Part shown: piece by piece, positions 39,556 to 55,932 of the stretch
Layout of the letters: the number at the start of each line of letters is the position of its first letter
How positions within the stretch are numbered: the first letter of the stretch is position 1
NCBI RefSeq assembly: GCF_015240255.1
Contig: NZ_CP061205.1
Span: forward strand, 3,582,501 to 3,646,500
Source of the DNA: Kordiimonas pumila
GTDB taxonomy: Bacteria; Pseudomonadota; Alphaproteobacteria; Sphingomonadales; Kordiimonadaceae
DNA: 64,000 bases
Direction of reading: 5' to 3'
Made by a program: the position numbers and the translations under genes
The notes under the pieces: generated by a model
What the model saw: only the letters and a program-made list of their open reading frames with translations
The model's database searches: none
Told to the model about the DNA's origin: nothing

Positions 39556-41865
39556 ATGCGCTACCATTCAACCACATCTTTTTCTGTCATGGCGTGGGCT
39601 TTGCTTGCGTCTTCAACCTATACCGCAGCAGCTACAGCAGAGAATGCCGCTGCGGAACCAAGGCAACTTGAAGAAATACTTATTACATCGCAGCGCCGCG
39701 AAGTTGGCTTGCAAGACAGCGCCGTTGCTGTTTCTGCGGTTACAGGCGCATCACTGGAGAAAGATCGGATTTATAACTACTCTGACCTTGCTCGTAGTGT
39801 TGCTTCACTTTCATACACAGAAAACTCGCCGCTCGACCAAGAATTCAATATTCGCGGCATTACCAACACGCGCCTTGATGCGCCGTCCGCCGACCAATCT
39901 ATCGGTATATTCATCGATGATGTATATGTTGGCCGCTCTGGCTTATTAAACGCAGACTTTTACGACATTGAACGCGTAGAAGTGGTGCGCGGCCCACAAG
40001 GTGTGCTACTTGGTCGTAATGTTGTTGGCGGTGCTATCAGCATTATTACAGCAAAACCAGAAGAAGAAACATCAGCCCATGTTACGTTTGGATACGGTAA
40101 TTATAATGCCATGCATACATCTGGTTATATTACTGGTTCTTTAAGCGATTCTCTCACAGGCCGTTTCTCCTTTCAGGCCCGGCACCATGATGGCTACAAC
40201 CATGATATCCTGCATGACCGCGACCTTGATAACCTTGATTCCATACAGATGCGCGGCCAGCTTGCATATGCACCAGATGGCTCTGATTTCAGTGCCCGCC
40301 TGATTGTAGATTATATGAAAGATAGCTCTAACGGCATTCACCGTGTCGCTATTGCAGACCCAAACAACCCTGGGTTAAACCCATGGAGCACAACGCGTGC
40401 CTTCATTGCAGCAAACCGCGAAGGTGGGCTTAGCATCAGGGAAAGCTTGCCAGAGCACCCACGTTATAAGGGTGACAACTTCGATACACCCCAAGGCCAT
40501 AAACGTGAAGCCCTTGGCCTAACCTTGCAAATGGAGAACAAAATCAGCGATGATATTGTTCTCACCAGCATAACAGGGTACCGCGACGGTGATGCAACAG
40601 GCGTGTACGACCAATCCGGCGCTGGCCCAGACAGCGGCTTTGGAGTCATAAGCCCCTTTGCGTTTTCATTTCCTGTGAATGAAGAAGAAAAAATTTCTCA
40701 GTTCACACAAGAGCTACGCTTAACATCTGATTATAGCGATAGTCGTTTTGACTGGATTTTAGGTGCATATTATCAACATGACAAAGTTGATAAGTACGAT
40801 AAATACTGGGGCGAGATTCCTGTGGGTTTACCTTCTATTTCTGGTGAATCTCACTGGGATAATGTCGGTAAAACCACCAGTTATGCAGCCTTTGGCCAAG
40901 TTGGGTACCAATTTGCTGACGCATGGAAACTAACAGCTGGCCTTCGCTATTCCCGAGACAAAAAAAGCGGAACAGTTACAGGTATTGCGGTTGAAACGGG
41001 TGACCAGTTCTTCCCGAATGACACAGTTTCGCTAACACCTATTGTCGGCCTTGCGGAAGGTGAAAGCTTTACAACCGAGTACGGTGAAAGCTGGGGTGAA
41101 TTTACACCGCAAGCAATCCTTGAGTTTACACCAACAGACAATCTGATGCTCTATGTAAGCGCCGCAAAGGGCTACAAAGGTGGCGGCTTTGAAGACACTC
41201 CAGCCAACGCTGTTGCTGCTCAAATTGCATATGACCCTGAAACGGTTACAAGCTATGAAGTGGGCGCAAAGTGGGAGTTCCTTGACGGTCGTGCAAGGCT
41301 CAATACTGCAGCTTTCACAATGGATTATAAAAACCTGCAAGTCACACAAACCGATGATGGCTGCTTATGCAACATTACAGACAATGCCGCAGATGCAAAA
41401 ATCAAAGGGATAGAAACAGAGCTACAATTTGTAGCCACTGACTTCCTGTATATCTGGGCTGCTGGTACAATTCTTGACACTGAATATAAAGACTTTATCG
41501 ACAGTAATGGTCTTGTGAACACCGGCAACAAACTGCAACGCACACCAAACTATCAGTTTAACATCGGCGCAGAAGTAACAACTGATTTTATGGACATGCC
41601 CGATGCCCTGCAAATACGGGCAAATTACTCGCAGCAAGGCAAACTATACTGGTTACCAGACAACTTCCAGTATGAAGATTCGTACGGTCTTCTTGATGCA
41701 CGGATCACATTGCACCCCGCAGATTCCAACTGGTCATTCTCTATCTGGGGTAAAAACCTGACAGATAAACTTTATCGCACGAACATTATTGCCTTCCTCG
41801 GTGACGAAGTATCTACCCTTGGCACACCAAGAACCTATGGCATTGAGTTATCACTAGACTTCTAA
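39556..41865 (+). CDS. TonB-dependent receptor, catabolic-region type
   Basis: An outer-membrane receptor of 769 residues. The signal peptide (about 1-28, cleavage after TAAATA) is followed by a TonB-box-like LEEILITSQRRE, a plug (about 50-165) with NIRGITNTRLDAPS, IGIFIDDVYVGRSG and VEVVRGPQGVLLGRNVVGGAIS, and a barrel ending in IELSLDF with a terminal Phe. This is the FepA/IroN-like plug wording abundant in sphingomonads, where many such receptors import hydrophobic or plant-derived compounds rather than iron. It is followed by a terminator, then an NTF2-like gene, and it is divergent from a thiolase, so uptake of the pathway substrate is likely (inference). Confidence 0.88.
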   Translation: MRYHSTTSFSVMAWALLASSTYTAAATAENAAAEPRQLEEILITSQRREVGLQDSAVAVSAVTGASLEKDRIYNYSDLARSVASLSYTENSPLDQEFNIRGITNTRLDAPSADQSIGIFIDDVYVGRSGLLNADFYDIERVEVVRGPQGVLLGRNVVGGAISIITAKPEEETSAHVTFGYGNYNAMHTSGYITGSLSDSLTGRFSFQARHHDGYNHDILHDRDLDNLDSIQMRGQLAYAPDGSDFSARLIVDYMKDSSNGIHRVAIADPNNPGLNPWSTTRAFIAANREGGLSIRESLPEHPRYKGDNFDTPQGHKREALGLTLQMENKISDDIVLTSITGYRDGDATGVYDQSGAGPDSGFGVISPFAFSFPVNEEEKISQFTQELRLTSDYSDSRFDWILGAYYQHDKVDKYDKYWGEIPVGLPSISGESHWDNVGKTTSYAAFGQVGYQFADAWKLTAGLRYSRDKKSGTVTGIAVETGDQFFPNDTVSLTPIVGLAEGESFTTEYGESWGEFTPQAILEFTPTDNLMLYVSAAKGYKGGGFEDTPANAVAAQIAYDPETVTSYEVGAKWEFLDGRARLNTAAFTMDYKNLQVTQTDDGCLCNITDNAADAKIKGIETELQFVATDFLYIWAAGTILDTEYKDFIDSNGLVNTGNKLQRTPNYQFNIGAEVTTDFMDMPDALQIRANYSQQGKLYWLPDNFQYEDSYGLLDARITLHPADSNWSFSIWGKNLTDKLYRTNIIAFLGDEVSTLGTPRTYGIELSLDF

Positions 41866-41955: not shown

Positions 41956-42438
41956 ATGATCAAACACTTAAAAACCGCTTTAATTGGAGTAATATTTGCC
42001 ATGTCAACACAAGCAATCGCTGAAACAGAAACTGAAAAAGCCTCTCTAAGCGTTGCCATGGATATGGTGCAGGCATGGAATGAGCTAGACGTTGATAAAA
42101 TTGCTGATCTTTTTGCAGAGGATGCCGTTCTACATTCTGTCATGATAGAACCCATACAGGGGCGTGAAGTTCTACGTGCTCACCTTGCTGCCCTTTTAAA
42201 AGGTGCCAGTTATCTGGAGCTGCAATTAAAGAATGTTGCCGTTTCAGGAAATGTTGTTTTTCTTGAACGTGTAGACACCTTTAAGGTTGGCGAACAGGAA
42301 GGCGCTGTTCCGGTTGTCGGTATTCTGGTGATCAAAGATGGCCATGTTCAGGAATGGCGTGAATATTATGACCGTGCTCAACTACTATCAGAAATGGGTG
42401 TGGCACAAATTGATAGCCCGGCACTAAACAAACATTAA
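41956..42438 (+). CDS. Exported limonene-epoxide-hydrolase-like NTF2-fold protein
   Basis: 160 residues with a signal peptide (MIKHLKTALIGVIFAMSTQA, cleavage after AIA). The mature part is an NTF2/SnoaL cone: WNELDVDKIADLFAEDAVLHS, then FLERVDTF and VQEWREYYD. Limonene-1,2-epoxide hydrolase uses an Asp-Arg-Asp triad from the motifs ERVD and WRDYFD; here Arg105 and Asp107 are kept but the last Asp is Glu136. It may be a periplasmic hydrolase, isomerase or binding protein. It sits between two terminators, downstream of the receptor. Confidence 0.7.
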   Translation: MIKHLKTALIGVIFAMSTQAIAETETEKASLSVAMDMVQAWNELDVDKIADLFAEDAVLHSVMIEPIQGREVLRAHLAALLKGASYLELQLKNVAVSGNVVFLERVDTFKVGEQEGAVPVVGILVIKDGHVQEWREYYDRAQLLSEMGVAQIDSPALNKH

Positions 42439-42498: not shown

Positions 42499-44340
42499 TT
42501 AAAACACAATAACCTTTTCAGAGGGGTCGTCGGCGTAAAGTGCCTCAATTTCTTCAACCCGATTTTTAGACGCTATTGCCTGATTAATAGTCCCCTTATC
42601 TGACAATTCGTGCTGATCAGCACTTAGGGGGGTTGCAAGAAAAGCCGCCCTAGCAATACGGCTAGACTTACCAGGATTTACCGCATTATAGGCTGTAAGC
42701 TTTTCTTTTACATACCCAAGTACTTCAGGATGCGCTGATAGATCATCGGCCAGCGTAAGACCAAAAATGGATTTTAGGCCCGGCGCATTAAGCACCAAAA
42801 GCGCCCCAAGTGCATCACGGCCTTCACCGCACAGAATAAGATCTGTAACAAGCGGCGAGAGACACGCTATTATGCCCGCCCGCACTTGCCCCCCCGACAC
42901 CCATGAACCCGTACCAAGCTTAAACTGTTCTGCAAGTCTGCCTGAAAAATACATACCCTTTGCAAAATCATTCGGGTCATGAAAGTTAACCAGATCCCCA
43001 AGCTTGTAAAAGCCTTCACTATCAAAAGACTGCGCCGATTTTTCTGGGTCATCAAGATAGCCAGACATGATATGAGGGCCGCGCATACGGATTTCAAACT
43101 CACCGTCCGTTGGCACCAGCTTCACCTCTACACCCGGTAGAGGTAGCCCAACACCCACCTTGCGGGTATCAAAGAAAATAGCCATACAGCCAGATGTTGT
43201 TTCGGTTGCTCCATACCCTGTTGTGATAAAAATCCGGTGTCCCGTTTCGGCCACCGCCATTGCCTGCAATCGCTCATAAAGGTCTTGCGAAAGGCCCGCA
43301 CCCCCGTAGAGCATTAAATGCAGGTTTTTAAAAAAAGCTTTACGAAGCAGCGGGTCGTCCTCCAGTGCCCCAACCAGCATTGCATAGCCAAACGGCACAT
43401 TTGCAAAATAAGGCACTGACAGTTCTTTAAGGTTTTTCAGTGTTTTTTCAAAGAGGCCCGGCGCTGGTTTACCGTCGTCAATATAAAAACTACCGCCAAA
43501 AACAAGGGCGCCCACCAAATTAGTAGCACCCGAAACATGGCTCCAAGGTAACCAGTCGAGTATTTTATCATCCCAGTGCATTCCTGCGCCCAAAATAGCA
43601 TGGGCCTGAAAGATGCTGGTCATAATCATACGCTGGGTCAAAATAACTGCTTTTGGCCTGCCCGTTGATCCTGATGTTAACATGTAAACCGCGTGACCAT
43701 CTGGATTGACCGAACCAATAACATCCTCCAATGATTGGGCTGGCACAGTTTCCAGAAGCTCCGAATAGCTTACTGTTTTTACAGACATATTGTCAGTTAA
43801 AGCTGAAATGATAGTACAGGCCGACAAATCGAGGGATAAAAGCGCCTTATTATAAAGGCTCCCTTCTTCGGCATAGATCAGAGCAGGCTTTACCAGCTCG
43901 AAAACATATTTTAACCGACCGAAGTCTCCCCCCATCAGGGCGTAATTACTGCTGATAGGGCACACAGGGACACCTGCCGCAACTGCCCCCAAACGCATAA
44001 CGGCATGCCCAATTGTATTGCCTGAAATAATCATAAGGGGCCGCTCAGAACCCACCTCAAACTTTAAAAGCCACTGCGCTACAGACCTAATTCGCGCCAT
44101 CAGTTCAGCAAATGTGCATGTCCTCCATGCGCCTGTTACCTTGTCTCTTTCTGCCAAAGCAATCTTATCCGGGCTTATGGCAGCACGTTTTTTCAGATGC
44201 CCATACAAAAGGGGGTCAAAGTCCGGTAGCGCAACATTGTTTTTTAAAAATATTGTGCCGTCAGATAGCTTCTTGATATCCAAATCCACCGCAGGCAGGT
44301 CTATCTCTCTAAGGGTAGCATCTTTTATTGATAGTTGCAC
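42499..44340 (-). CDS. Acyl-CoA synthetase, feruloyl-CoA-synthetase-like
   Basis: An ANL-superfamily ligase of 613 residues. The phosphate-binding loop is YMLTSGSTGRPKAVILT (about 218), the adenylate region is ITTGYGATETTSG (about 373), and the hinge is YKLGDLVNF with FSGRLAEQFKLGTGSWV instead of the usual GRxKD...G wording. That hinge and the length match feruloyl-CoA synthetase/long aromatic-acid ligases, which activate cinnamate-type acids. The start is GTG with AAGG upstream. It is divergent from an NTF2-like gene across a nested inverted repeat. Confidence 0.8.
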   Translation of the reverse strand: MQLSIKDATLREIDLPAVDLDIKKLSDGTIFLKNNVALPDFDPLLYGHLKKRAAISPDKIALAERDKVTGAWRTCTFAELMARIRSVAQWLLKFEVGSERPLMIISGNTIGHAVMRLGAVAAGVPVCPISSNYALMGGDFGRLKYVFELVKPALIYAEEGSLYNKALLSLDLSACTIISALTDNMSVKTVSYSELLETVPAQSLEDVIGSVNPDGHAVYMLTSGSTGRPKAVILTQRMIMTSIFQAHAILGAGMHWDDKILDWLPWSHVSGATNLVGALVFGGSFYIDDGKPAPGLFEKTLKNLKELSVPYFANVPFGYAMLVGALEDDPLLRKAFFKNLHLMLYGGAGLSQDLYERLQAMAVAETGHRIFITTGYGATETTSGCMAIFFDTRKVGVGLPLPGVEVKLVPTDGEFEIRMRGPHIMSGYLDDPEKSAQSFDSEGFYKLGDLVNFHDPNDFAKGMYFSGRLAEQFKLGTGSWVSGGQVRAGIIACLSPLVTDLILCGEGRDALGALLVLNAPGLKSIFGLTLADDLSAHPEVLGYVKEKLTAYNAVNPGKSSRIARAAFLATPLSADQHELSDKGTINQAIASKNRVEEIEALYADDPSEKVIVF

Positions 44341-44519: not shown

Positions 44520-44945
44520 ATGACTGCGCTCTCAACCCTTAAAACGCTCATTTCTTCTTGGAAAGCTGGCGATATAGAAACAATCCTTGCTCAACTCGCT
44601 GATGATGTTGTCTATCACTACCATATTGGATCACCGCCCCTTGAAGGCAAGACTGCAGTAAAAGCCTTTCTGGACAAATTTGGATCAGGGCAAACGAACA
44701 TCAATTGGCGTTTAACCAACTATGCCGAAACCGGAAATGCCGTACTGGTTGAAGGCATTGATGACTATGTAAACGCCGAAGGCGTCCATATTCAAATGCC
44801 CTATATGGGTATTCTGGAATTAAAAGACGGCCTTGTTATTCGCTGGCGTGACTATTTTGATTCAAGCCTGCTGCAAAAGGTCAAAGAAGGTGGCTCACAA
44901 TCTATGTGGACAAAAGCACTGCGCGATATAGAAACGGCCTCATAG
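44520..44945 (+). CDS. Limonene-epoxide-hydrolase-like NTF2-fold protein, cytosolic
   Basis: 141 residues without a signal peptide: SSWKAGDIETILAQLADDVVYHYH, GKTAVKAFLDKF, LVEGIDDYV and IRWRDYFDSSLL. Against the limonene-epoxide-hydrolase triad, Asp81 and Asp111 are present but the Arg of the ERVD motif is Gly79. It is thus complementary to the exported paralogue at 41956, which keeps Arg but loses the second Asp. AAAGGA lies nine bases before the ATG. It ends 20 bases from the convergent catabolic operon. Confidence 0.75.
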   Translation: MTALSTLKTLISSWKAGDIETILAQLADDVVYHYHIGSPPLEGKTAVKAFLDKFGSGQTNINWRLTNYAETGNAVLVEGIDDYVNAEGVHIQMPYMGILELKDGLVIRWRDYFDSSLLQKVKEGGSQSMWTKALRDIETAS

Positions 44946-44965: not shown

Positions 44966-45499
44966 CTAGAAGCGCTGGTAGGATAGGTCTGCCTGTCCGC
45001 GCTTACCCATAATCATGCCTGGGTCTTCGGGCTTAAAAAGACCGAGGCACCAACCTTCGCTTGATGGCATGTCATGGTTCCAGTCAAACGCCATTTTACG
45101 GTGTGCAATTTTCCACACACCATCACGGCATTCAAAACGATCAACAATACGCCCTCCGGTTAGTGTATCCCATGGATCTGTGCCTTTATCAAAGCGTGCA
45201 AATGTCAGTAAATAACTTTCAACATACGCAATATTTTGGCCTAAATTCAGATCAATGTGCACATTGCACAAATAGTGTGCCATCGGATGTTTGAGCTTCA
45301 TAAGCCGCTCTGCCGCACCGTCCGCATAAGCGTGGGCTGGCCCGGTGTATGTATTACCGTGTTCTTCAATAGCATCACTGTGATAACAGGACTTAAGTAG
45401 AGGTGCATCTGCCCGGTCGACCGCACGTGCATAATTCACAAGAACATCATGAATATCCTGCTTCGCAAGTAATGTTTCTAGCGTATTTGGCTGTGTCAT
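44966..45499 (-). CDS. SnoaL_4-type NTF2-fold protein (second copy)
   Basis: About 177 residues: LAKQDIHDVLVNYARAVDRA, CYHSDAIEEHGNTYTG, a central HYLCNVHIDL strand, RIVDRFECRDGVWKIAHRKMAFDWNHDMPSSEGW. The spaced Tyr, Arg, Asp, His and Glu residues of the first helix pair and the WNHDMP stretch match SnoaL_4 proteins of aromatic and steroid catabolic loci; the superfamily also contains the gamma-formaldehyde lyases of lignin-dimer breakdown. It is paralogous to the gene at 46252. The ATG at 45499 has AGGGA; the frame extends to 45562. It is last in the eight-gene operon. Confidence 0.75.
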   Translation of the reverse strand: MTQPNTLETLLAKQDIHDVLVNYARAVDRADAPLLKSCYHSDAIEEHGNTYTGPAHAYADGAAERLMKLKHPMAHYLCNVHIDLNLGQNIAYVESYLLTFARFDKGTDPWDTLTGGRIVDRFECRDGVWKIAHRKMAFDWNHDMPSSEGWCLGLFKPEDPGMIMGKRGQADLSYQRF

Positions 45500-45512
45500 A
45501 CTTTTATCCCTT

Positions 45513-46250
45513 CTAGGTACGTACTTGCGCTGCCATGGCATGTTCCAAGGCTTTTGGGTCACGGGCTAGTGCTGCCCGCACTTCCATTGCGTGCGGGTCT
45601 GTATCCATTTCATCAACACCGTTTCGGGCAGCAGCGATACCTGCTCTTGCAATCGCTTCCGGTGTAGATTTTTCTCGTTTTATATGAGAAGCCATGCGCG
45701 TATCAACTGATCCAACAATAAGCGCAGAAACTGTAGTGCCCTGCCCCGCAAGCTCTGCCCTGATACAGGTTGAGGCTGCCCGCGATGCAAACTTGGACGG
45801 GCTATACCCCCCCATGCCCGGCACGGCAACAATGCCACCTGCCGACAACACATTAACAATTGCCCCGCCGCCATTTCGCTTCAAAACAGGGGCAAACGCA
45901 CGGCACATAGCAACCACACCAAAATAGTTGACCTCCATCTCAGTGCGCATGGCCGACATGTCTTTGGCGCCAATAAGCCTTTCATTAATAAAGGCCCCAG
46001 CATTATTCACCAGCAAAGAAACATCGGTGCAGTTCATGGCAGCATTTTCAATAGTCTCTGGCCTCGTAACATCAAGTGCAACAGCAACCAGTTGTTTTGG
46101 GTTTTCTGTGGCAATAGCCTCACCTTCTGATAAGGACCGGCAACCAATATATACTTTTTTAGCGCCCGCTTTTAAAAGCTCGGTTACAAAACCAAGCCCT
46201 ATGCCTCGATTGCCACCAGTTACAAGGGCAACTGCGTTCTCGATGTTCAT
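45513..46250 (-). CDS. Short-chain dehydrogenase/reductase
   Basis: A classical SDR of about 245 residues: cofactor loop VTGGNRGIGLGF (about 10-18), NNAGAF, the catalytic Ser in LSAGG and YSPSKFA (Tyr/Lys pair near 150). An NAD(P)-dependent alcohol/ketone oxidoreductase; no substrate can be read. The ATG at 46250 is preceded by AGGGA and is separated by one base from the upstream SnoaL_4 stop; 13 bases separate it from the downstream SnoaL_4 gene. An upstream extension to 46304 is out of family. Confidence 0.85.
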   Translation of the reverse strand: MNIENAVALVTGGNRGIGLGFVTELLKAGAKKVYIGCRSLSEGEAIATENPKQLVAVALDVTRPETIENAAMNCTDVSLLVNNAGAFINERLIGAKDMSAMRTEMEVNYFGVVAMCRAFAPVLKRNGGGAIVNVLSAGGIVAVPGMGGYSPSKFASRAASTCIRAELAGQGTTVSALIVGSVDTRMASHIKREKSTPEAIARAGIAAARNGVDEMDTDPHAMEVRAALARDPKALEHAMAAQVRT

Positions 46251-46251
46251 T

Positions 46252-46794
46252 TCATTCCCTCCCGAAACCAAAATTATAGAGAATATCATTCGGCTTTTTG
46301 CCACCTCTGATCAGTTTTGAAACATCTGGGGCTATCATGCCGCGCCCCCATGTTTCACGAGTTGGCATCTCATGATTCCATTCCCATGCAAGCCGCCGGT
46401 GCACGATCGCCCACTTACCACCCCGTTTTTCAAACTTGTCAATCAGGCGTGCCATCGTAAGGCTGTCAAAAGCCTCGCCTTTTGCCTCGCGCCGGGAAAA
46501 GGTCATAATATAGCATTCACTGGTGGCATGGGTGCTATCTTCAAGCTCAATCAGCATGTTTGTAATCGCATGGCTCATGCGCCCTGCAGACGGCAGAACT
46601 TTTCTAATCATTTCAAGATAGTCTGCCGCCGAACCAAGAAAAGTGCCGCCGTGATCTTCCGTTGCAGCAGGATGATAAGCTTCTGCAATCAGGTCCGCAT
46701 CCCCGCGGTCCGCCCCTCGGCAATATTTTACCAAAACTTCTTCAATTGCTTTTTTATCAAGCAGTGCCTGTATGGCATCATCATACTCAGCCAT
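46252..46794 (-). CDS. SnoaL_4-type NTF2-fold protein (first copy)
   Basis: About 180 residues: LLDKKAIEEVLVKYCRGADR, AYHPAATEDHGGTFLGS, RMSHAITNMLIEL, MARLIDKFEKRGGKWAIVHR and WEWNHEMPTRETWG. Tyr/Arg/Asp/Arg/Asp in the first helices and His/Glu/His of YHPAATEDHG are shared with the paralogue at 44966 and with SnoaL_4 enzymes. The reaction is unknown: candidates are an aldol-type lyase, isomerase or dehydratase on the pathway intermediate. The ATG overlaps the DUF1295 stop by one base (TAATG), showing translational coupling. Confidence 0.75.
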   Translation of the reverse strand: MAEYDDAIQALLDKKAIEEVLVKYCRGADRGDADLIAEAYHPAATEDHGGTFLGSAADYLEMIRKVLPSAGRMSHAITNMLIELEDSTHATSECYIMTFSRREAKGEAFDSLTMARLIDKFEKRGGKWAIVHRRLAWEWNHEMPTRETWGRGMIAPDVSKLIRGGKKPNDILYNFGFGRE

Positions 46795-47603
46795 TACACC
46801 CTCCCCTTTACGTTCTTTGGAAACCACGGAATGAATGACCGTGTCCGCGCCAAATAGTCTTCATACCCAGGTTTTGACCGTGACAAGCGCCGTTCCAAAA
46901 GGGCGGCACCAGACCATTTTACAAGTGTCCATGTCAAAAGGGCCGGACCAAAAATACTAAGGTATCCATACGGTGCCCCTAACGCGATAAGGTACAGGCC
47001 CCAGAAAACACAAGCGTCACCAAAATAATTTGGATGCCGGGTATAGCGCCACAACCCTTGGTCCATTACTTTACCTTTATTCTCTGGCTTACTTCGAAAA
47101 CGCGCCATCTGCCAATCACCCACGCTTTCAAAGAAAAAACCAAGTGTTGATAATCCAACCCCAACAAAGGCAAGAAGGCCCAAAGGCATGATCGTAGGTC
47201 CCGCCATCACAAAGAGAATTGGCAGCGCCACAATCCACAGCATAACGCCCTGAATAAGGAATACATTTTTCAGGGTATAGATATGCACATTGCCTTTTGC
47301 TTTTGCCTTTAGGGCCACATACCGGCCATCTGGCCCGTCTTTGCGCCACCGCACAAATATATAAAGGCCAAGCCGTGTTCCCCAAACCGCAGCGACTATC
47401 AGAACCAGTTGCTTAATACCGCCTCCTTCAGCACCGGTTACCCAGTAGCCAAAACCCGCAAGAACCACAAATCCTGCCGCCCAAAAGCTATCAACAAATG
47501 ATACATCATCAATGGCAATAGACAGCAGCCATAAGACGATCATACAAGCCATAATAACAGCAAACTCAACTGCCAAAAGTTCAGCTAAACCCGAAATTTC
47601 CAT
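46794..47603 (-). CDS. DUF1295 family membrane protein (steroid reductase-like)
   Basis: A 269-residue protein with about six to seven hydrophobic segments. The signature region VMDQGLWRYTRHPNYFGDACVFWGLYL (about 190) is the core of DUF1295 and the related 5-alpha-steroid reductase/isoprenylcysteine methyltransferase group, where RHPNYFG lies near the NADPH or SAM site. YxxYLARTRSFIPWFPK closes the protein. DUF1295 members are presumed membrane reductases of hydrophobic ring or isoprenoid compounds. It lies directly after the carotenoid-oxygenase-type gene, suggesting a lipophilic substrate. Confidence 0.85.
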   Translation of the reverse strand: MEISGLAELLAVEFAVIMACMIVLWLLSIAIDDVSFVDSFWAAGFVVLAGFGYWVTGAEGGGIKQLVLIVAAVWGTRLGLYIFVRWRKDGPDGRYVALKAKAKGNVHIYTLKNVFLIQGVMLWIVALPILFVMAGPTIMPLGLLAFVGVGLSTLGFFFESVGDWQMARFRSKPENKGKVMDQGLWRYTRHPNYFGDACVFWGLYLIALGAPYGYLSIFGPALLTWTLVKWSGAALLERRLSRSKPGYEDYLARTRSFIPWFPKNVKGRV

Positions 47604-47633
47604 TTTGCCTTACTCCCCTTTAAGACCCCGTAG

Positions 47634-49112
47634 CTATGAAGTTTTGTAGCCGGGATGCGAAATATCACTCGCATTTGCCCAGCAAGCATGTGTTCCACTT
47701 GAAATCCTGTGTGGCAGGATAATCCGGCATACTGGGCCAGCCTCAATATCTGCAGCGTCAAGCAGCACACATTCGGACCGGTTTTCATTCATGTCGGTAA
47801 TAAAGCTTACGATATATCCATCATCCTCCGTCTTTGCGTTTATCCGCGGTGCAAACGGAGCCTCACTACCATAACGCCCTTTACCAAACTCATACGACCA
47901 GCTTTTTCCCGTTTCCAGATCATGCTTCACAACACCGGTAAACAAAAACCAACCGGGCTTACTGGTGGTGCTATAGAGATAGCGGCCATACCGGCCTGCT
48001 ATTTTCTGGTTAAAGGACCCAAACTCCAACACCCGGTCATCAAGGCGCTGTTCTTTGGTTTCACCGGTTTTTAGGTTAAAACGCCAGCGGTGCAGCTTGG
48101 GTTTAAAGGAATGTTCATCCAGAAACGCCATCATCAGGCCGGCGCTTGGCGGCATGCCTTCAAGCGGCTTCGGATACGGCGATTCCTGAAAATATCCATC
48201 AAGGACAATTTCATCACCGTCCTCATAAGCATTCATCCAGTGCAATACATATGTGGGTGCAGCTTCAAACCACTTAATATCTTCTGGGTTTCCGTAGCGC
48301 GGCACAATGGCAAAACGGGTAGGAATATCGCGGAAAAACTTGCTCGTATGATAGCCGACTTTCAGCCCTTCAGGGTCCCAGAACAAGGGTAGATCTGCCA
48401 TTATGGAATAATTCTCAGTAAAGGCCATATCATGCGGCAAGCGCGGGCCGGGTAAGTCTACCGGTATATAGTGTTTCAGTTTATTGTCAGGGCCAACTAC
48501 CCCGTAATTCATATAGGGTGCATCTTTACCATAATTGAAAAACAGCATATCACCTGTTGCTTCATCAACCTTGGGATGCGCTGATATACCGCCTTTGGGA
48601 ACCCAACTTTCAGGGCCAAATTGATCAAGAGTATAAGGGTCAAGCCGGTATCCTTCACCGCACTGGTAAAAGGTCGACATAATCTTGCCCGCATGAACTA
48701 CAACATCTGTTGAGGACGAATCTTTTAAAGCACCCTGCGCGCCCCAACCCGGGCGTAGTGATTTATTGGGGTTTTCTGCAATACCCGCCCAAAGAGCATG
48801 ACCAACAGCGGCTTCTTCATCAAAGCCCTTTGTGCGCACAAATCGGTTTCGATATTCTGCCTTGCCATCCTCAAACCGCATGATGTGCACCATGCCATCA
48901 CCGTCAAAAGGGTGATACTTACCAATTGCTTCATGGACAGGGTTTTCAGTATTGCGCACATAAACACCGTCAATATCAGAAGGTATTTCGCCAATAACTT
49001 CCATATCTGTAGCGTTATATTCATCAAAGTTTGGTGTCCATGCCCCATTCATATAGGGGTGGTCATTTTCTTTAAGCGTGCTGTGCACATGCTGCACTAG
49101 GGTGGCTGGCAT
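47634..49112 (-). CDS. Carotenoid cleavage oxygenase family protein
   Basis: A seven-bladed-propeller non-haem iron dioxygenase of 492 residues. All four iron-binding His can be placed: His179 in ISAHPKVD, His227 in LPHDMAFTENY, His291 in YVLHWMNAYEDG and His475 in SSGTHACW; second-shell Glu candidates are present. The family splits C=C bonds of carotenoids, apocarotenoids or stilbenes into two carbonyls. GDGMVHIMRF and HPFDGDG are typical. The start has AAGGAG. It sits mid-operon among SDRs, a DapB-like dehydrogenase and SnoaL_4 proteins, which points to catabolism rather than pigment formation. Confidence 0.9.
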   Translation of the reverse strand: MPATLVQHVHSTLKENDHPYMNGAWTPNFDEYNATDMEVIGEIPSDIDGVYVRNTENPVHEAIGKYHPFDGDGMVHIMRFEDGKAEYRNRFVRTKGFDEEAAVGHALWAGIAENPNKSLRPGWGAQGALKDSSSTDVVVHAGKIMSTFYQCGEGYRLDPYTLDQFGPESWVPKGGISAHPKVDEATGDMLFFNYGKDAPYMNYGVVGPDNKLKHYIPVDLPGPRLPHDMAFTENYSIMADLPLFWDPEGLKVGYHTSKFFRDIPTRFAIVPRYGNPEDIKWFEAAPTYVLHWMNAYEDGDEIVLDGYFQESPYPKPLEGMPPSAGLMMAFLDEHSFKPKLHRWRFNLKTGETKEQRLDDRVLEFGSFNQKIAGRYGRYLYSTTSKPGWFLFTGVVKHDLETGKSWSYEFGKGRYGSEAPFAPRINAKTEDDGYIVSFITDMNENRSECVLLDAADIEAGPVCRIILPHRISSGTHACWANASDISHPGYKTS

Positions 49113-49123
49113 ACTATTTCTCC

Positions 49124-50191
49124 TTACTGATCGTCAGGTGCCAAACGGCACTGAAATATTGGTGCAGATGGCATAGCCAGCACACCCGGCGCGGCGCTCA
49201 TAAGCAATGGAATGGAATTCATCACAGACCCAGCAACACCGTATTGTTCTGGTGATGTTTTATAAGGGTCATCGGCTCTGCGGCTCAGGTCTATTTTCAA
49301 ATCAACGCACGGGTCACCTGTGATGGAAACATGCCAAAGGGGGAACTCCGGCTCTGGCAGATGTACAGTTTCCATAATCCAATCAATTGCAAGCGACACA
49401 AAAGGCTTTCCGCCAGACATTGCATGCCAGCACCATGCCGTGTGACTGATCGTTCCTTTTGGAATAATGCCTGCTGCCATTTCAATATCGGTACTGGCGG
49501 GCAGCATCTTATGTTCTGTTTCAATTACATCTGGCACACGGCCAAGGCGCGCTGCCAACTGGGCAACCACTTCGCTATAGAGACCGTTCAACAATTCCGC
49601 AGGTGGCCACTTGACGTTATTCGGGTTTATCTTGCCGGGTTTAGAGCCAAAACCCAGCATATCAAATACATACTGCGGGCTGCGCATTTCATTACATTTA
49701 ACAATCTCACGAACTGTAATATTATCAAGGCGCGTACATATACCCGTTGCCGTTGCAGCAATACGCTCAACAATAAATCCAGGATTTAAACCACCACCCA
49801 ACAAGGTGGATTGCCCTTTATTACAAGCATCTTCAAACTTGCTAAAGTGATCGGCACCCCAATGCTGTGGATAGCTATGACCATTAATGCTAATAACATT
49901 CTTACCGGATGCCAATAAGCGCTGGATGTCGCTGTCATGGCTTGTATACGGCGGCTGCACCATAGGGGTGTGAATAACAATATCAGCATTCAGTGCTAAA
50001 ATATCATCAATAGCATTTGTTGCAAGAATGCCTGTTTTGGCGCGGTGGGCAATGTCGCCTGCATCAGCACCAACTTTCTTGGGATTATAAACATAAAGGC
50101 CCACAAGCTCCAGATCTGGGTGGTCTATCACAGCCCTTAAACAGGTTTTCCCCATGGCACCCGTTGCCCATTGTACAACTTTATAGGTCAT
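49124..50191 (-). CDS. DapB-like NAD(P)-dependent dehydrogenase
   Basis: A Rossmann-fold protein of 355 residues: VVQWATGAMGKTCLRAVIDHPDLELVG (1-30) is the NAD(P)-binding start of dihydrodipicolinate-reductase-like and 2,4-diaminopentanoate-dehydrogenase-like proteins, followed by DIVIHTP, NVISING and LGGGLNPGFIVERIA. It is not a lysine-biosynthetic DapB: it is about 80 residues longer and the usual dipicolinate motif is absent. Such proteins recur in steroid and terpenoid loci of actinobacteria and sphingomonads with unproven substrates. It overlaps the upstream SDR by four bases and lies 11 bases before the oxygenase gene. Confidence 0.8.
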   Translation of the reverse strand: MTYKVVQWATGAMGKTCLRAVIDHPDLELVGLYVYNPKKVGADAGDIAHRAKTGILATNAIDDILALNADIVIHTPMVQPPYTSHDSDIQRLLASGKNVISINGHSYPQHWGADHFSKFEDACNKGQSTLLGGGLNPGFIVERIAATATGICTRLDNITVREIVKCNEMRSPQYVFDMLGFGSKPGKINPNNVKWPPAELLNGLYSEVVAQLAARLGRVPDVIETEHKMLPASTDIEMAAGIIPKGTISHTAWCWHAMSGGKPFVSLAIDWIMETVHLPEPEFPLWHVSITGDPCVDLKIDLSRRADDPYKTSPEQYGVAGSVMNSIPLLMSAAPGVLAMPSAPIFQCRLAPDDQ

Positions 50192-51105
50192 GGCAGCGCC
50201 TTTTTTGAAACCATTATTTTGTTTACCAGATCAACAAACGATGCTTCCGCACCTACAAAACCACAAGCGCCACTCATATCCGTAAGCGTATCTAGATTTT
50301 CATCGAACCACGCCGATGTACTATCCACATTAGGTGTAACAGCGGCCCCTGTGCTCTCAACTGTTTCAGCAACCCTAAAATAACCACCGCCTGCAACCCA
50401 CACATCCCCTGTTCGATTGCAGGCATCACTTGCCAACCATTCTATTAGTGGGGCTACCTTAGCAGGAGCCATATCAGGAGCAGCACTATCGCCGCCCATA
50501 CCTGCTGTCATTTGTGTTTCTGCATAAGGCACCACAACATTCACATAAATATCAGAGCGTCGGACTTCTGCAGCCAATGTTTTAGCAAAAGCAATAAGAG
50601 CGCCTTTTGATGCCGAATAAGGGGCGCGCCCCCGCACACCGTATAGCCCCGCTGTAGAACCAATGAAAATCACCCGCCCAGCAGAAGACTTTTGGATATA
50701 AGGCAAGGCTTCCTGCGTGATAGAAATAGCAGAGAACAAGTTAGTTTCAAAAACAGACATAAAGGCCGATAATGCTGTATCTTGCACTTTACTTGCCGTG
50801 CCTGAAATACCTGCATTCAAGATTAAAACATCAATGCTGCCAAAAGCCGTCAGCGCTGTTTTAACGATTGTCTCTGCAGCGTTACCATCTTGCATGTCGC
50901 TATAGTCAGCAACAGCTTTGCCTCCAAGAGAAAGTATTTCAGAAACCACTTTATCTGCGGCGTTCTCTTGGTCTGCGTGCACACGGTTATTGACCACAAC
51001 ATTATAACCAGCTGCCGCTAAAGCATGCGCAAAAGCACGACCCAAGCCTTTGCCTGCACCTGTTATAACAGCAGTTTTGCATAAAGATATGCCTGCCATA
51101 GTCAT
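50188..51105 (-). CDS. Short-chain dehydrogenase/reductase
   Basis: An SDR of 305 residues: VITGAGKGLGRAFAHALAAA (about 13), LILNAGISG, FIGSTAGLYG (catalytic Ser) and YSASKGALIAFAK (Tyr/Lys). The extended C-terminus (about 215-305) resembles the SDR domain of peroxisomal multifunctional 17-beta-HSD4-type enzymes, which oxidise 3-hydroxyacyl-CoAs; here no hydratase domain follows. GGGGAGG precedes the ATG. It follows the HxlR regulator by 72 bases and overlaps the DapB-like gene, so it opens the structural part of the operon. Confidence 0.85.
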   Translation of the reverse strand: MTMAGISLCKTAVITGAGKGLGRAFAHALAAAGYNVVVNNRVHADQENAADKVVSEILSLGGKAVADYSDMQDGNAAETIVKTALTAFGSIDVLILNAGISGTASKVQDTALSAFMSVFETNLFSAISITQEALPYIQKSSAGRVIFIGSTAGLYGVRGRAPYSASKGALIAFAKTLAAEVRRSDIYVNVVVPYAETQMTAGMGGDSAAPDMAPAKVAPLIEWLASDACNRTGDVWVAGGGYFRVAETVESTGAAVTPNVDSTSAWFDENLDTLTDMSGACGFVGAEASFVDLVNKIMVSKKALP

Positions 51106-51177
51106 ACATAACCTCCCCGTTATCTAACAGAGACGCTAGCATAGTAAGTATGATTTTAAAAGTTACTTTTTGAAATT

Positions 51178-52137
51178 TTATTCAGCAAACACCTTAGCTG
51201 GCTTTTCTGCTACGGTTGATAACTCATAAGCCACATCACCAGCCCTAATAGCGCCCCCACAATGAGAACAATTCACTGTTGGTGTAAGCTCGTGTCCACA
51301 AGGTGTATGGTTAAGCAGCAGCGGTGGCCCCTCGGGTGAGGCATACCATTTATCACCCCATTGCAGCAGCATCAGCAGCACAGGGTAATAATCCCAGCTC
51401 CTGTCTGTAAGCCTGTATTCATACCGTGTAGGCGCATCTTGATAGGCGTGCGTATACAAAAAACCATTATCAACCAGCTGGTTTAATCTGTCAGACAAAA
51501 TATTTGTGGCAATACCTGTGTCTTTTCTGATTTCATCAAACTTGCGCAACCTTGTAAAAACAGACCGCAAGATAAGACCAGCCCACCGGTCGCCCGTCAC
51601 CATCGCAATTTCATGAAACAAGCTTGTACACTCAGCAACATTTTGGCGGCCTTCACCTTGCCTGCGCCTGCTGTAAGATGGTGCCATCCAGCCAACTCCT
51701 GGGCCTTCGTCCCACGTTACATCTCGCGCAAAGATTTCTTTCTCACAGTGGCCACAACTTGGTACTGGGTCAAACACATGCCCACACACCTTGTGTGTAA
51801 GCTGGACACTGGTCTTTTCCTGTCCAGAGCTCCATTTTTTTTCCCAGCGCAGCATCATGAGCGCGGTCCAATAAAGCTCCATACATTTTTCAGTCATACG
51901 GTAATCATAGCGCTTGGGCGTTTCGCTGTAAGCTACTTTCACTAATAGACCATTAGCAATCAATTGCTTCAGGCGACCACTTACAAGCGCCTTCAGCATA
52001 CCCGTGCGTGTTTGAATTTCGCTAAAGCGCCGGGCACCTTGCCAAATAGACTCTAAAATCAGCAGCGTGGCAAAATCTCCCACAACACCTAGTGCACGCC
52101 ATATAGAACATGTACGTATAAATTTTTGTTCTGCCAC
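51178..52137 (-). CDS. Tandem HxlR transcriptional regulator with two Cys-rich knuckles
   Basis: 319 residues formed by an internal duplication. Each half has an HxlR winged helix (about 8-102 and 168-262; compare SIWRALGVVGDFATLLILES with SLFHEIAMVTGDRWAGLILR), then a CGH-N8-CxxC metal-knuckle (Cys118/128/131 with His120; Cys280/290/293 with His282). Single-domain HxlR proteins are about 110 residues and act as dimers, so this chain may be a self-contained dimer that binds metal. Cys10 and Cys170 lie at the position of the redox Cys in many HxlR proteins. It is the first gene of the operon and divergent from an acyl-CoA ligase. Confidence 0.85.
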   Translation of the reverse strand: MAEQKFIRTCSIWRALGVVGDFATLLILESIWQGARRFSEIQTRTGMLKALVSGRLKQLIANGLLVKVAYSETPKRYDYRMTEKCMELYWTALMMLRWEKKWSSGQEKTSVQLTHKVCGHVFDPVPSCGHCEKEIFARDVTWDEGPGVGWMAPSYSRRRQGEGRQNVAECTSLFHEIAMVTGDRWAGLILRSVFTRLRKFDEIRKDTGIATNILSDRLNQLVDNGFLYTHAYQDAPTRYEYRLTDRSWDYYPVLLMLLQWGDKWYASPEGPPLLLNHTPCGHELTPTVNCSHCGGAIRAGDVAYELSTVAEKPAKVFAE

Positions 52138-52351: not shown

Positions 52352-54031
52352 ATGCAAACAACAGATCCGGCTAAGTCCGCATATTTTAGGGAAAAAGGTT
52401 GGTGGGGGAACACCACCTTTACAAGCCTTATGGATGAAGCCATTTTGGGAGCGCCAGATAGAGTAGCCCTCATTGACCCTCTGAACCGCGCCGTCATCAC
52501 GGGTGGCACACAGTGCCGGCTCACGTACACTGATGTGTCAAGGCTTGCTGATTTTCTGGCGCACAGGTTTAGAGAAAAAGGAATTGGGCAAGGCGACAAG
52601 GTTATAGTGCAATTACCTAACATTGCAGAGCTGGTTATCTCGTATCTGGCACTTGACCGCCTTGGTGCCATATTAAGCCCGGTTCCCATGCAATATGGCA
52701 GGTTTGAGTTATCACATGCTGCACAGGAAACTGAAGCTGATGCCTACCTTACGGTCGCAGATTTTAACGGCAAAAATTATCTGGAAAACCGGCTCACTGC
52801 GTTTCCGGCAAAAACTAAACTGTTTACTTTTGCCGCAGAACCAAAAGAAAACTACATAACAGTACCCTACTTTTCAGATATCAGCCCCGAAACGCTTGAA
52901 GGCCAAGCTGTCTTTGACCGAGCGATAAGTTCCGCTGATGATATATACACTATTTGCTGGACATCTGGCACAACAGGTGTGCCAAAGGGTGTGCCACGCC
53001 ATCATAATCACTGGCTATCACAAGTTTATGCTGTACGAGATGCCGCCCCAGTTGATGACGGTGCCGTCATGTTAAACCCTTTCCCTCTTACCAACATGGG
53101 CGCAATTTCAGGATTTCTATACTATTGGCCGATGGCCAAAGCCTGCCTTGTTTTGCATCACCCATTTGATCTGCAACTTTTCCTTACCCAGATTATGCAG
53201 GAGAAAGTTTCCTATACTATTGCCCCGCCAGCTGTGCTCAGCATGTTCTTGCAACACACAGAACTGCACGACAAAGTCGACCTTAGTCATGTGCGTTATA
53301 TAGCTTCAGGATCAGCCCCGATAAGCCCTGCCGTTACCAAAGGCTTTAAAGAGCTGTTTGATGTTGAAATCGTAAATTTCTTTGGATCAAATGAGGGCGC
53401 TGGCCTTGTTGGTGGCCCTGTAGATGTGCCAGATACTGAAGTGCGCGCGACCATGTTCCCACGCTTTGGCCGACCCGAGATAAAATGGTCAAACAGATTT
53501 GCTGCCCGCAGCCGCACAAAGCTTGTGGACTGGCAAAATGGCGACCGCGAAATTACTAGCGCCAAAGAAACCGGAGAACTGCTCGTAACTGGGCCCAATG
53601 TTTTTGACGGCTACTTAGGAGACATACCTAATAACCCGGCGGTTTTTGACCCAGAAGGATATTTTCGAACGGGCGACTTGTTCCAAATATCTGATGATGG
53701 ACGTTTTTATATATTTGTCGGTCGCCGCAAGGAGCTGATTATCAGAGGCGGCATGAATATATCGCCAGAAGAACTAGATACTGTGGTCGGTGACCACCCC
53801 TACATTACAGAAGCTGCTGTTGTTGGATACCCTGATGACGTGATGGGCGAAAAAGTTGCTGCCGTTATCGTAACATCACAGACAGACTTCACACTCGAAA
53901 CTCTCAAGGCCTATTTGGCCGAGCGCGGTGTAGCAAAATACAAATGGCCAGAAAAACTTGTAATTACAAACGCCTTGCCCCGCAATGCCATGAACAAAGT
54001 CGTGCGCCAGCAACTTAGCGATTTCCTGTAA
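52352..54031 (+). CDS. AMP-dependent acyl-CoA synthetase
   Basis: An ANL-superfamily ligase of 559 residues: nucleotide loop ICWTSGTTGVPKGVPRHHNHW (about 204), adenylate-site FFGSNEGAGLV (about 345), FRTGDLFQISDDGRFYIFVG with GRRKELIIRGGMNISPEELD hinge, and the CoA-site PRNAMNKVVRQQL at the C-terminus containing the catalytic Lys. It forms an acyl-CoA from an acid produced by the pathway; chain or ring type cannot be read. Divergent from the HxlR regulator, with the shared 28-base motif in its promoter; GGGAGGG precedes the ATG. Confidence 0.9.
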   Translation: MQTTDPAKSAYFREKGWWGNTTFTSLMDEAILGAPDRVALIDPLNRAVITGGTQCRLTYTDVSRLADFLAHRFREKGIGQGDKVIVQLPNIAELVISYLALDRLGAILSPVPMQYGRFELSHAAQETEADAYLTVADFNGKNYLENRLTAFPAKTKLFTFAAEPKENYITVPYFSDISPETLEGQAVFDRAISSADDIYTICWTSGTTGVPKGVPRHHNHWLSQVYAVRDAAPVDDGAVMLNPFPLTNMGAISGFLYYWPMAKACLVLHHPFDLQLFLTQIMQEKVSYTIAPPAVLSMFLQHTELHDKVDLSHVRYIASGSAPISPAVTKGFKELFDVEIVNFFGSNEGAGLVGGPVDVPDTEVRATMFPRFGRPEIKWSNRFAARSRTKLVDWQNGDREITSAKETGELLVTGPNVFDGYLGDIPNNPAVFDPEGYFRTGDLFQISDDGRFYIFVGRRKELIIRGGMNISPEELDTVVGDHPYITEAAVVGYPDDVMGEKVAAVIVTSQTDFTLETLKAYLAERGVAKYKWPEKLVITNALPRNAMNKVVRQQLSDFL

Positions 54032-54086: not shown

Positions 54087-55325
54087 TTATCGTCCCACGA
54101 TGAAGGATACAGTGGTGGTCGCACTACCCCCGATATTCAGTGTACCAACACGGCGGGCCCCTTCCACCTGATAGTCGCCAGCCTTACCTGCAACCTGTTT
54201 TGCCGCATCAAGCACCATTCGGGCACCGGTTGCACCAACAGGGTGCCCGAGCCCGATAAGCCCGCCACTTGGGTTAACAGGTAGTTTTCCGTCAAACGCA
54301 ATGGTGCTATCTTCAATAGCTTTCCAGCTTTCACCGGGCTTGGTAATACCAAAATGATCAATCGCCATATATTCTGTTGTGGTAAAACAGTCATGTGTCT
54401 CAATGGCATCCAAATCGAACGAGCCATTTATCGCGGCACGGCCAAACGCATCCATAATCGCGCGCCTTACATGCGGAAATATATAAGGTGAATTACTTTT
54501 CATACCTTCTGCCAATTTGCTATCAAGAGAAATGGGCGCCACAGAATGCCCCCAACCTTGAATACGGGGAATATTTTCCAAGGCAAGGCCGTGTTTGCTA
54601 GCATATTTTTCTGCGCCTTTGCGGCTTGCCAGAAACACAACAGCAGCCCCGTCCGTTACTTGACCGCAGTCTTGTCGACGAATGCGGCCATCAATAACAG
54701 GGTTTGCCTCGTTATCTTCAGTAAAGCTTTTCGGGCCAAACTCCCATTTTTTGGTCTGTGCATTAGGGTTTCGTTTTGCGTTCGCAAAGTTCACTTCCGC
54801 GATGCCTGCCAAATGCTGCTGCTTTAGTCCGTAACGCCTATCATATTCATCCCCAAGGCGGGAAAACATATGTGGCCAAGGGTATTTCACATCTGTGCAT
54901 TCATGACCTGCCCACATTGCAGTACCACCGATAAATTTAGCAGCCTGATCACCCGGTATATTGCGCATCATTTCAATGCCTAGCACAGCCACCACATCAT
55001 ATCGGCCCGCTTCAATTTCTGCAGTGGCAGAAAGCATGGCAATGCTACTTGATGCACATGCCGCTTCATGACGCCCTGCGGGCATGCCAGAAAAAGCCGG
55101 ATCAGCTTCGGCAAAAAAGCCACCTAAATGACCTTGACCACAGAAAAGTTCCGCCGTGAAGTTACCCACATGAGCAGCGTCAATATCTGTAGCGGCAAGC
55201 CCAGTTTCTGCCATGCCTTCTTCTAGAGTTTCCTTGAACATATCCATAAGCTCAAGGTTTTCGCGTGCCCAGTTCCTGCTGAAATCCGTCTGGTAGCCGC
55301 CTAAAATAAAAACATCATTCGCCAT
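54087..55325 (-). CDS. Thiolase, SCP2-type acetyl-CoA acetyltransferase
   Basis: About 412 residues. The nucleophile Cys90 lies in HEAACASSSIAML and the catalytic His in NPSGGLIGLGHPVGATGARM; the C-terminal GGSATTTVSFIVGR lacks the second Cys, as normal for the SCP2-like subfamily. These thiolases cleave bulky 3-ketoacyl-CoAs such as sterol side-chain or ring intermediates. The ATG at 55325 has AGGGAA; the frame extends to 55430. It is 13 bases after the isomerase gene, forming a two-gene operon under the shared 28-base motif. Confidence 0.87.
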   Translation of the reverse strand: MANDVFILGGYQTDFSRNWARENLELMDMFKETLEEGMAETGLAATDIDAAHVGNFTAELFCGQGHLGGFFAEADPAFSGMPAGRHEAACASSSIAMLSATAEIEAGRYDVVAVLGIEMMRNIPGDQAAKFIGGTAMWAGHECTDVKYPWPHMFSRLGDEYDRRYGLKQQHLAGIAEVNFANAKRNPNAQTKKWEFGPKSFTEDNEANPVIDGRIRRQDCGQVTDGAAVVFLASRKGAEKYASKHGLALENIPRIQGWGHSVAPISLDSKLAEGMKSNSPYIFPHVRRAIMDAFGRAAINGSFDLDAIETHDCFTTTEYMAIDHFGITKPGESWKAIEDSTIAFDGKLPVNPSGGLIGLGHPVGATGARMVLDAAKQVAGKAGDYQVEGARRVGTLNIGGSATTTVSFIVGR

Positions 55326-55338
55326 TTTCTTTTCCCTG

Positions 55339-55932
55339 TTACCAACCGCCTGTTTCACACCAGCGTTTTGCGTGCTCAAGCCTGTCTGCTCCCCAAAAAA
55401 GCTCATCTCCAATCGCAAACGTCGGCGCACCGAATACGCCCTTTTCCAATGCTATAGCCGTTGCACTGCGCACCGCTGCCTTGATTTCATCACTACCGCT
55501 TTTTTCCAGTATATTTGCAGCATCCACGTTCAGTTTTTGCAAAAGCTTGCCAATCACTTCCTGGCTTGCTGCATCTTGCCCTTCTGCAAAAACAGCATGG
55601 AATATAGCCTTTGCAAATAGCACCGCCGTCGCTTCAGGCAACGTATAAAAAACTCTGGCTGCAAGCATACTGTTGTAAGGAAAAACCTTAGGTAGCTTGA
55701 ATACAAGCTTTTCAGCCCGTGCATAGCGGGCCACATCACAAAAAGTATATTTACCCTTTGGTGTATCAGGCGTAACTGGGGACCAGCCATTTTCCCGGAA
55801 AATAATACCCAACAAAATAGGCTGCCATTTAACAGTTACACCTGTATTTGCAAAAGCCTCTTCCACGGTTTTTTGGGCGATATAAGAATAGGCCGATGAA
55901 AAATCAAAATAGAATGTAAGCTCCTTGCTCAT
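55339..55932 (-). CDS. 2-hydroxychromene-2-carboxylate isomerase-like DsbA-family protein
   Basis: About 197 residues with the kappa-class GST/DsbA fold: LTFYFDFSSAYSYIAQKTVE (Ser at the glutathione-activating position), KWQPILLGIIF, then the helical insert, and VFGAPTFAIGDELFWGADRL at the end containing the cis-Pro GAPTF. The family isomerises ring-opened aromatic intermediates with glutathione. The gor gene at 21690 would keep glutathione reduced. The ATG at 55932 has AAGGGGAAG. It heads an operon with the thiolase. Confidence 0.85.
   Translation of the reverse strand: MSKELTFYFDFSSAYSYIAQKTVEEAFANTGVTVKWQPILLGIIFRENGWSPVTPDTPKGKYTFCDVARYARAEKLVFKLPKVFPYNSMLAARVFYTLPEATAVLFAKAIFHAVFAEGQDAASQEVIGKLLQKLNVDAANILEKSGSDEIKAAVRSATAIALEKGVFGAPTFAIGDELFWGADRLEHAKRWCETGGW

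Follow-up and report, generated by a model that had tools for sequence, protein, structure and literature searches.

A conserved gene block around an uncharacterised clade of carotenoid-type oxygenases in Kordiimonas pumila, with a possible role in isoprenoid catabolism

Among the described systems closest to the locus reported here are the lignostilbene dioxygenases (LSDs) and LdpA/PcfL lyases of Sphingobium SYK-6 and Novosphingobium, in which an NTF2-fold lyase makes a double bond that an oxygenase of the carotenoid-cleavage superfamily then cuts. PMC12997858 counts eight LSD homologues in SYK-6, along with 62 from the NTF2 superfamily, and says that further pathways are still to be described. 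Other points of comparison are the plant enzyme OfCCD1 (PDB 7vud/9m6z), which stands outside any catabolic operon, the apocarotenoid 13,14-dioxygenases of NACOX1/NSC3 type (NF052295), and the SnoaL_4-fold enzymes LinA, scytalone dehydratase and bile-acid 7-alpha-dehydratase (BaiE). Here we analyse a 64,000-nucleotide stretch of the Kordiimonas pumila genome (the window; contig NZ_CP061205.1, 3,582,501 to 3,646,500; positions below are those of the window) that shares with the lignostilbene systems the oxygenase superfamily, an NTF2-fold partner and a make-then-cut logic, but differs in its oxygenase clade, in lacking a phenol clamp and, in searches of PDB sequences, a match to LdpA, and in having CoA ligases and thiolases as partners. 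The window holds a real and conserved gene block, apparently undescribed and probably catabolic, around an uncharacterised oxygenase clade. We put at roughly 45% the probability that this block serves the catabolism of an imported molecule that has methyl branches and a conjugated double bond and is probably an isoprenoid (apocarotenoid-like), a substrate class that we infer from the thiolase type, the DUF1295 protein, the missing phenol site, the sequence kinship of the oxygenase to CCD1 and the lack of an above-cut-off CrtI match in the genome.

At 44966-52137, eight open frames lie on the minus strand in the order tandem HxlR regulator, short-chain dehydrogenase/reductase 1 (SDR1), DapB_N-like oxidoreductase, oxygenase, DUF1295 protein, SnoaL_4a, SDR2 and SnoaL_4b (Table 1). 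An earlier note on this DNA had described this one-strand arrangement, and the seven junctions (72, -4, 11, 30, -1, 1 and 13 bases) bear it out when the three genes at the end are given inner ATG starts, picked by eye; their longest GTG-started open reading frames (ORFs) would give -34, -53 and -50 bases at the last three junctions. The families that the note had assigned to all eight genes hold by profile score. Its coordinates proved too narrow, however: the eight-gene unit forms the centre of a longer stretch, the block at 37853-57089, with about 17 genes. Within it lie the genes that recur around related oxygenases, including two acyl-CoA ligases, two thiolases and a TonB receptor. A scan for promoter-like and terminator-like sites stayed near the mean of shuffled sequence (15 against 12.3 and 10 against 8.7, respectively). 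The oxygenase has a single match in its own genome (4.04 Mb, single contig).

The oxygenase belongs to the PF03055 superfamily by score, by its four iron-binding histidines and by fold. These histidines, already noticed in the earlier reading, are kept together with one Glu in all 157 aligned oxygenases, the window's included. Ninety-three distinct sequences, again including the window's, form what we call clade A, each scoring at least 742 bits to the window protein; seven paralogues at 38-43% identity form clade B, and all other relatives score at most 232 bits. In a tree of 87 rows, a quick tree in which long branches meet, a branch with SH-aLRT support of 100 separates the 23 clade-A rows used from all others, and another, also at 100, does so for 13 LSD rows (twelve anchors above the NCBIfam cut-off plus the PDB LsdA). 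The apocarotenoid 13,14-dioxygenases are placed elsewhere (nine rows carry that label, two scored against the model and the others assigned by tree position), and the nearest row outside A and B is the CCD1 structure 9m6z, with support of 92. Clade-B oxygenases (about 42% identity) share a cluster with a clade-A one at L003:808-2340 and L016:16502-18013, in the latter adjoining NMO and ligase genes.

The window oxygenase scores 219.8 bits against the lignostilbene dioxygenase model NF053778 (cut-off 800), 185.5 of 650 against the NOV2 model and 237.3 against NF052295, its highest-scoring NCBIfam model, with a cut-off of 675. An identity as an apocarotenoid 13,14-dioxygenase was therefore rejected on score and on its separate clade. 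Two oxygenases do exceed that cut-off, those of L141 (791.9 bits) and L144 (742.4 bits), and their genomes also carry clade A. PMC8191317 places the LSD phenol site at Phe-59, Tyr-101 and Lys-134. All three residues are kept in 13 of 13 LSD rows, whereas clade A has the Phe in 93/93, the Tyr in 0/93 and the Lys in 0/93, with Leu, Ile, Cys or Trp at Tyr-101 and Tyr, Trp or Phe at Lys-134. Under Tyr-101 the window protein has Ala in the pairwise and Ile in the multiple alignment, neither of them Tyr. The Tyr and Lys are also absent from 13 of 13 LSD-like rows below the cut-off.

These results bear directly on an analogy drawn in the earlier note, in which a SnoaL lyase would turn a lignin dimer into a stilbene for the oxygenase to split. 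The shared superfamily, NTF2-fold partner and reaction logic are what commend it; we reject it on clade, cut-off and residues and regard it as highly improbable. The SnoaL_4 proteins, moreover, gave no match to LdpA in searches of PDB sequences, and thiolases and a DUF1295 protein have no obvious role in such a route. The phylogenetic comparison that the note had proposed does not support a place among the lignostilbene dioxygenases, and it puts the oxygenase outside the apocarotenoid 13,14 clade as well. Given its place in the tree, the cut-offs, the residues and the structural matches, clade A falls by these tests outside both the LSDs and the known apocarotenoid families.

Sequence and structure rank the known relatives differently. 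By sequence, plant CCD1 scores 235.6 bits and LsdA 187.5, and the AlphaFold2 model of the oxygenase (predicted local distance difference test (pLDDT) score 94.4) finds OfCCD1 as its best Foldseek match (E 3e-44; 32-34% identity), with PDB matches spanning residues 19-494. By VIA-align Z, LsdA (44.0), NOV1 (42.7) and VP14 (42.7) all stand above CCD1 (40.9). The structural ranking of the modelled fold thus does not favour carotenoids.

The gene block is defined by its recurrence. We examined the best 80 of 205 loci encoding a relative of the oxygenase (16 of the 80 shorter than 13 kb), counting a window gene as present at 38% identity or more over at least 60% of its length. Twenty loci that surround other carotenoid-type oxygenases, in 17 genomes that also hold relative loci, served as controls (one is 13 kb long). 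Genes in the relative loci came from a codon-usage caller, longest ORFs having given antisense frames in high-GC loci. Every block partner gene counted was found in 0 of 20 controls. The SCP2-type thiolase was the commonest partner, and it, the NMO-family flavoprotein, HxlR, the AMP-binding ligase, DUF1295, the thiolase and SDR2 each reached p <0.05 (one-sided, unadjusted Fisher tests of the 64 loci of at least 13 kb against the 20 controls, which ignore both multiple testing and the kinship of interrelated loci). Taken singly, SnoaL_4a and SnoaL_4b, both SnoaL_2/limonene-epoxide-hydrolase (LEH)-like proteins, the FCS-type ligase, the DapB-like protein, the TonB receptor, SDR1 and the DsbA-like protein did not reach p <0.05 against the controls.

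At least one of six core partners (SCP2-type thiolase, HxlR, DUF1295, thiolase, ligase and NMO) accompanies the oxygenase in 55 of the 80 loci, at least three in 27 and none in 25. L016 and L020 have all six together with all eight of a further set (both SnoaL_4 genes, SDR2, the DapB-like gene, the FCS-type ligase, both SnoaL_2 genes and SDR1); for L002 the two counts are five and eight, for L023 four and seven, and for L003 two and seven. The order of all eight genes of the putative operon, and of flanking genes too, is identical in L002, apparently from the same genome as the same-genus G049; L003 has seven of the eight, rearranged, and L016, L020 and L023 have all eight or seven. The arrangement of the eight genes, which recurs whole or in part in these five loci, is more than chance. 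The combination of oxygenase, SnoaL_4 and DUF1295 for which the earlier note had suggested a search holds up in part, DUF1295 recurring in 22 of 80 loci and SnoaL_4 in only 8-9, where the two SnoaL_4 proteins are similar enough for one gene to count as both (in L021 one gene was called and both were counted). The SnoaL_4, DapB-like and SDR genes recur less often than the core partners; they thus extend, in certain lineages only, a core that is more common.

Table 1. Genes of the block, with profile scores and recurrence among the 80 related loci and 20 controls (p, one-sided Fisher test).
Feature	Coordinates	Strand	Evidence
Thiolase	37853..39100	-	Thiolase_N/C; 21/80 loci, 0/20 controls
TonB-dependent receptor	39556..41865	+	barrel 162 bits, plug 57 bits; 7/80 loci, p 0.14
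LEH-like protein, apparent signal peptide (by eye)	41956..42438	+	LEH 51.1 bits; 9/80 loci, p 0.1
Acyl-CoA synthetase, PRK12582 type (FCS-type ligase)	42499..44340	-	669.8 bits, below cut-off 777; 8/80 loci, p 0.1
SnoaL_2/LEH-like protein	44520..44945	+	SnoaL_2 59.4, LEH 50.1 bits; 8/80 loci, p 0.1
SnoaL_4b, dehydratase-like	44966..45562, likely ATG start 45499	-	SnoaL_4 65.0 bits; 8/80 loci, p 0.1
SDR2	45513..46304, likely ATG start 46250	-	PRK08264.1-4 292.3 bits, cut-off 279; TGxxxGxG + YxxxK 14/14; 13/80 loci, p 0.04
SnoaL_4a, dehydratase-like	46252..46827, likely ATG start 46794	-	SnoaL_4 76.6 bits; 9/80 loci, p 0.075
DUF1295 membrane reductase-like protein	46794..47603	-	DUF1295 210.8 bits; HPNYFG 26/26; 22/80 loci, 0/20 controls
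Carotenoid-oxygenase-superfamily dioxygenase, clade A	47634..49112	-	RPE65 401.5 bits, cut-off 27
DapB_N-like oxidoreductase	49124..50191	-	DapB_N 30.1 bits, cut-off 25.6; 8/80 loci, p 0.14
SDR1	50188..51105	-	adh_short 157 bits; TGxxxGxG + YxxxK 6/6; 5/80 loci, 0/20 controls, p 0.25
Tandem HxlR regulator, first operon gene	51178..52137	-	Pfam HxlR, 2 stretches, 108 bits; 25/80 loci, 0/20 controls
Acyl-CoA ligase (AMP-binding)	52352..54031	+	214 bits; 24/80 loci, 0/20 controls
SCP2-type thiolase, uncertain start, longest ORF runs into next gene	54087..55430	-	Thiolase_C_1 90 bits; 38/80 loci
DsbA-like protein	55339..55998	-	DSBA 121 bits; 2/80 loci, p 0.58
NMO-family flavoprotein	56079..57089	+	NMO 88 bits; 29/80 loci, 0/20 controls

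The loci that lack every core partner could mean that the oxygenase serves in general to detoxify or modify apocarotenoid signals, with varied catabolic neighbours present by chance or through shared regulation; 12 Sphingorhabdus-like loci, in which its neighbours are a dapD-like gene and a HAD hydrolase gene, point the same way. Against this speaks the fact that core partners do recur in the remaining 55 loci, whose records bear Alpha- and Gammaproteobacteria titles, and we consider such a role decidedly unlikely.

Other neighbourhoods show recurring patterns of their own. In 12 loci (L060, L062-L066, L068, L071, L072, L075, L076 and L078) a HAD hydrolase gene and a dapD-like gene are followed by the oxygenase, without core partners. 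Genes resembling lysA and argH lie upstream in L011-L013 (L012 argH-like only) and in L006, the last with DUF1295. In L014, whose record is titled Deltaproteobacteria, an SCP2-type thiolase, a thiolase and a clade-A oxygenase stand in a row, through transfer or a binning error. Several genes absent from the window's block also recur in relatives, namely a divergent TonB receptor in 15 loci, an aldehyde dehydrogenase in 10, a major facilitator superfamily (MFS) transporter in 9, a hydrolase of beta-lactamase fold in 8 and a tannase-family protein in 4, each cluster assigned to its family from one scanned representative.

Outside the block, eleven window genes recur in 0 of 80 loci under the same rule; with a looser one, the genes at 35551, 32541, 60587, 61330 and 62417 singly match in a few loci at about 26-34% identity. 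The genes at 60587-63949 (a cupin-HTH regulator, a fumarylacetoacetate-hydrolase-type protein and an FAD_binding_3 protein), with 0/80 loci by the rule and a few weak matches under the looser one, look like another catabolic operon. At the block's edge, membership of the DsbA-like protein is weak.

The two SnoaL_4 proteins look nearer to dehydratases than to the stilbene-forming lyase LdpA, as weak evidence suggests. The SnoaL_4a model (pLDDT 84.5) has as its best Foldseek matches 3ef8 (a putative scytalone dehydratase), bile-acid 7-alpha-dehydratases and LinA; the fold is shared, at 14-22% identity in the structural matches. An Asp/His dyad, which we take to be catalytic in LinA-type dehydratases, is present in 16 of 16 rows and aligns with that of LinA. 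Searches of PDB sequences returned only LinA for SnoaL_4b (best E 3e-5), no match at E 0.1 for SnoaL_4a, and LdpA for neither.

Motifs are likewise kept in other partners. In the SCP2-type thiolase, the Cys nucleophile is present in 41 of 41 rows, HDCF in 39 (two gaps) and GHP in 38 (three gaps), motifs that we assume to be catalytic; the 41 rows are caller genes with the window's included, as against 38 loci by the recurrence rule. The nearest PDB relative of the LEH-like protein at 41956-42438 is LEH itself (E 8e-13), and of the presumed Arg/Asp/Asp catalytic triad of limonene-1,2-epoxide hydrolase ERVD is kept and WRD becomes WRE (Asp to Glu). The DapB_N-like protein scores 87.6 of 400 bits against a 2,4-diaminopentanoate dehydrogenase model, and of its PDB relatives (6g1h and 6g1m among them) the nearest are annotated as dihydrodipicolinate reductase and weaker ones as amine dehydrogenase. 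Behind each helix-turn-helix of the tandem HxlR protein (51178-52137) we noticed by eye a CGH..CxxC-like stretch, possibly a zinc site.

Several of these families would also suit the degradation of a steroid or another terpenoid, in ring or side chain, with a dehydratase-made double bond split by the oxygenase and DUF1295 acting as a steroid reductase. The DUF1295 protein, which has no match at E 0.1 among PDB sequences, does match Steroid_dh, at 21.6 bits and so below the cut-off of 22.6; bile-acid 7-alpha-dehydratases are among the best SnoaL_4 folds, the thiolase is of SCP2 type, and one SnoaL_2 protein weakly matches a model related to ketosteroid isomerase (31.6 of 97.1 bits). NMO and DsbA families also occur in steroid degradation. 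On the other side, we know of no carotenoid-type oxygenase that acts on a steroid, and the block's Pfam matches include no DUF35 partner of steroid aldolases. A steroid substrate, which the earlier note had named alongside an isoprenoid one, is in our estimate unlikely; its isoprenoid suggestion fits our preferred reading.

For the catabolism of an isoprenoid, several kinds of observation count. First, the core partners are selective for clade A, the commonest being the SCP2-type thiolase with its motifs kept. SCP2-type thiolases act on 2-methyl-branched 3-oxoacyl-CoA. Second, the block includes an LEH-like protein, and relatives carry the aldehyde dehydrogenase, MFS and TonB clusters. Third, the oxygenase scores nearer to the CCD1 and apocarotenoid models than to LsdA and the lignostilbene model and has no phenol clamp. 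Under this reading, the TonB receptor would carry the compound across the outer membrane, and the SnoaL_2/LEH-like proteins might act by opening an epoxide or by moving a double bond. Changes at alcohol and carbonyl functions would fall to the SDRs and the DapB-like enzyme, while dehydration by the SnoaL_4 proteins would lengthen the conjugated system. Using O2, the oxygenase would then cleave one C=C bond to give two carbonyl products, whose enone or enal double bonds DUF1295, and perhaps the NMO flavoprotein, would saturate. An aldehyde dehydrogenase, with a gene in 10/80 related loci and none in the window's block, could yield acids, which the two ligases would join to CoA. Thiolysis of the thioesters, by the SCP2-type thiolase and the ordinary one, would then release propionyl-CoA, from methyl-branched pieces, and acetyl-CoA. 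HxlR presumably regulates the operon.

The distribution of clade A points to transfer. Twelve of 29 Kordiimonadaceae genomes have a clade-A-level match (at least 761 bits), and the family's clade-A oxygenases (12 of 44 rows: the window, L002, L050, L055, L113-L118, L121 and L122) do not form one clade (approximately unbiased test, p 2.4e-5). Those of the window and L002 group with Euryhalocaulis (Maricaulaceae) and the others fall into two further groups, so that the gene has moved horizontally between families. The L117 oxygenase, from the same-genus genome G058, and the Kordiimonas laminariae oxygenase (L050) are nearly identical. Within the genus, a CrtI-family match above cut-off occurs in 1 of 19 genomes, not the window's, and a clade-A oxygenase in 10 of 19; since CrtI is so rare, the substrate is probably not home-made. 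An endogenous carotenoid substrate was accordingly set aside as unlikely, the CrtI family, the sole marker searched, having no match above cut-off in the window's genome. About 8 kb from the genus's only such match lies a distant oxygenase (G060:C1:1142845-1144164; 45 bits), unlike the clade-A gene. A speculative but conceivable extension is that bacteria of sea, fresh water and soil share, through horizontal spread, a pathway dedicated to mineralising carbon from carotenoid derivatives (apocarotenoids or retinoids) to propionyl-CoA and acetyl-CoA, with the uncharacterised clade making the cut.

The earlier note knew of no described pathway with this gene set, and we found none: among the open-access matches listed, no paper treats the set or any bacterial gene set that degrades carotenoids or apocarotenoids for carbon, subscription journals lying mostly outside the search. 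According to PMC5133782, SaCCO of Sphingopyxis alaskensis cleaves apo-8'-carotenal, not beta-carotene or zeaxanthin, and, as we understand that text, is one of two putative oxygenases of the species; its accession (WP_011541991) appears in PMC6097328. In one Sphingopyxis-titled genus, 43 of 60 genomes carry a clade-A-level match (at least 749 bits), and one of the two S. alaskensis oxygenases may therefore belong to clade A.

Carotenoids and apocarotenoids are abundant algal and plant products. Even with another substrate, clade A is a widespread group without a function from the models and papers examined. For bacterial carotenoid or apocarotenoid degradation the block is a candidate whose genes can be named and put to the test, and its carriers with deposited genomes include Maricaulis salignorans, Marinicauda pacifica, Euryhalocaulis caribicus and Phenylobacterium kunshanense.

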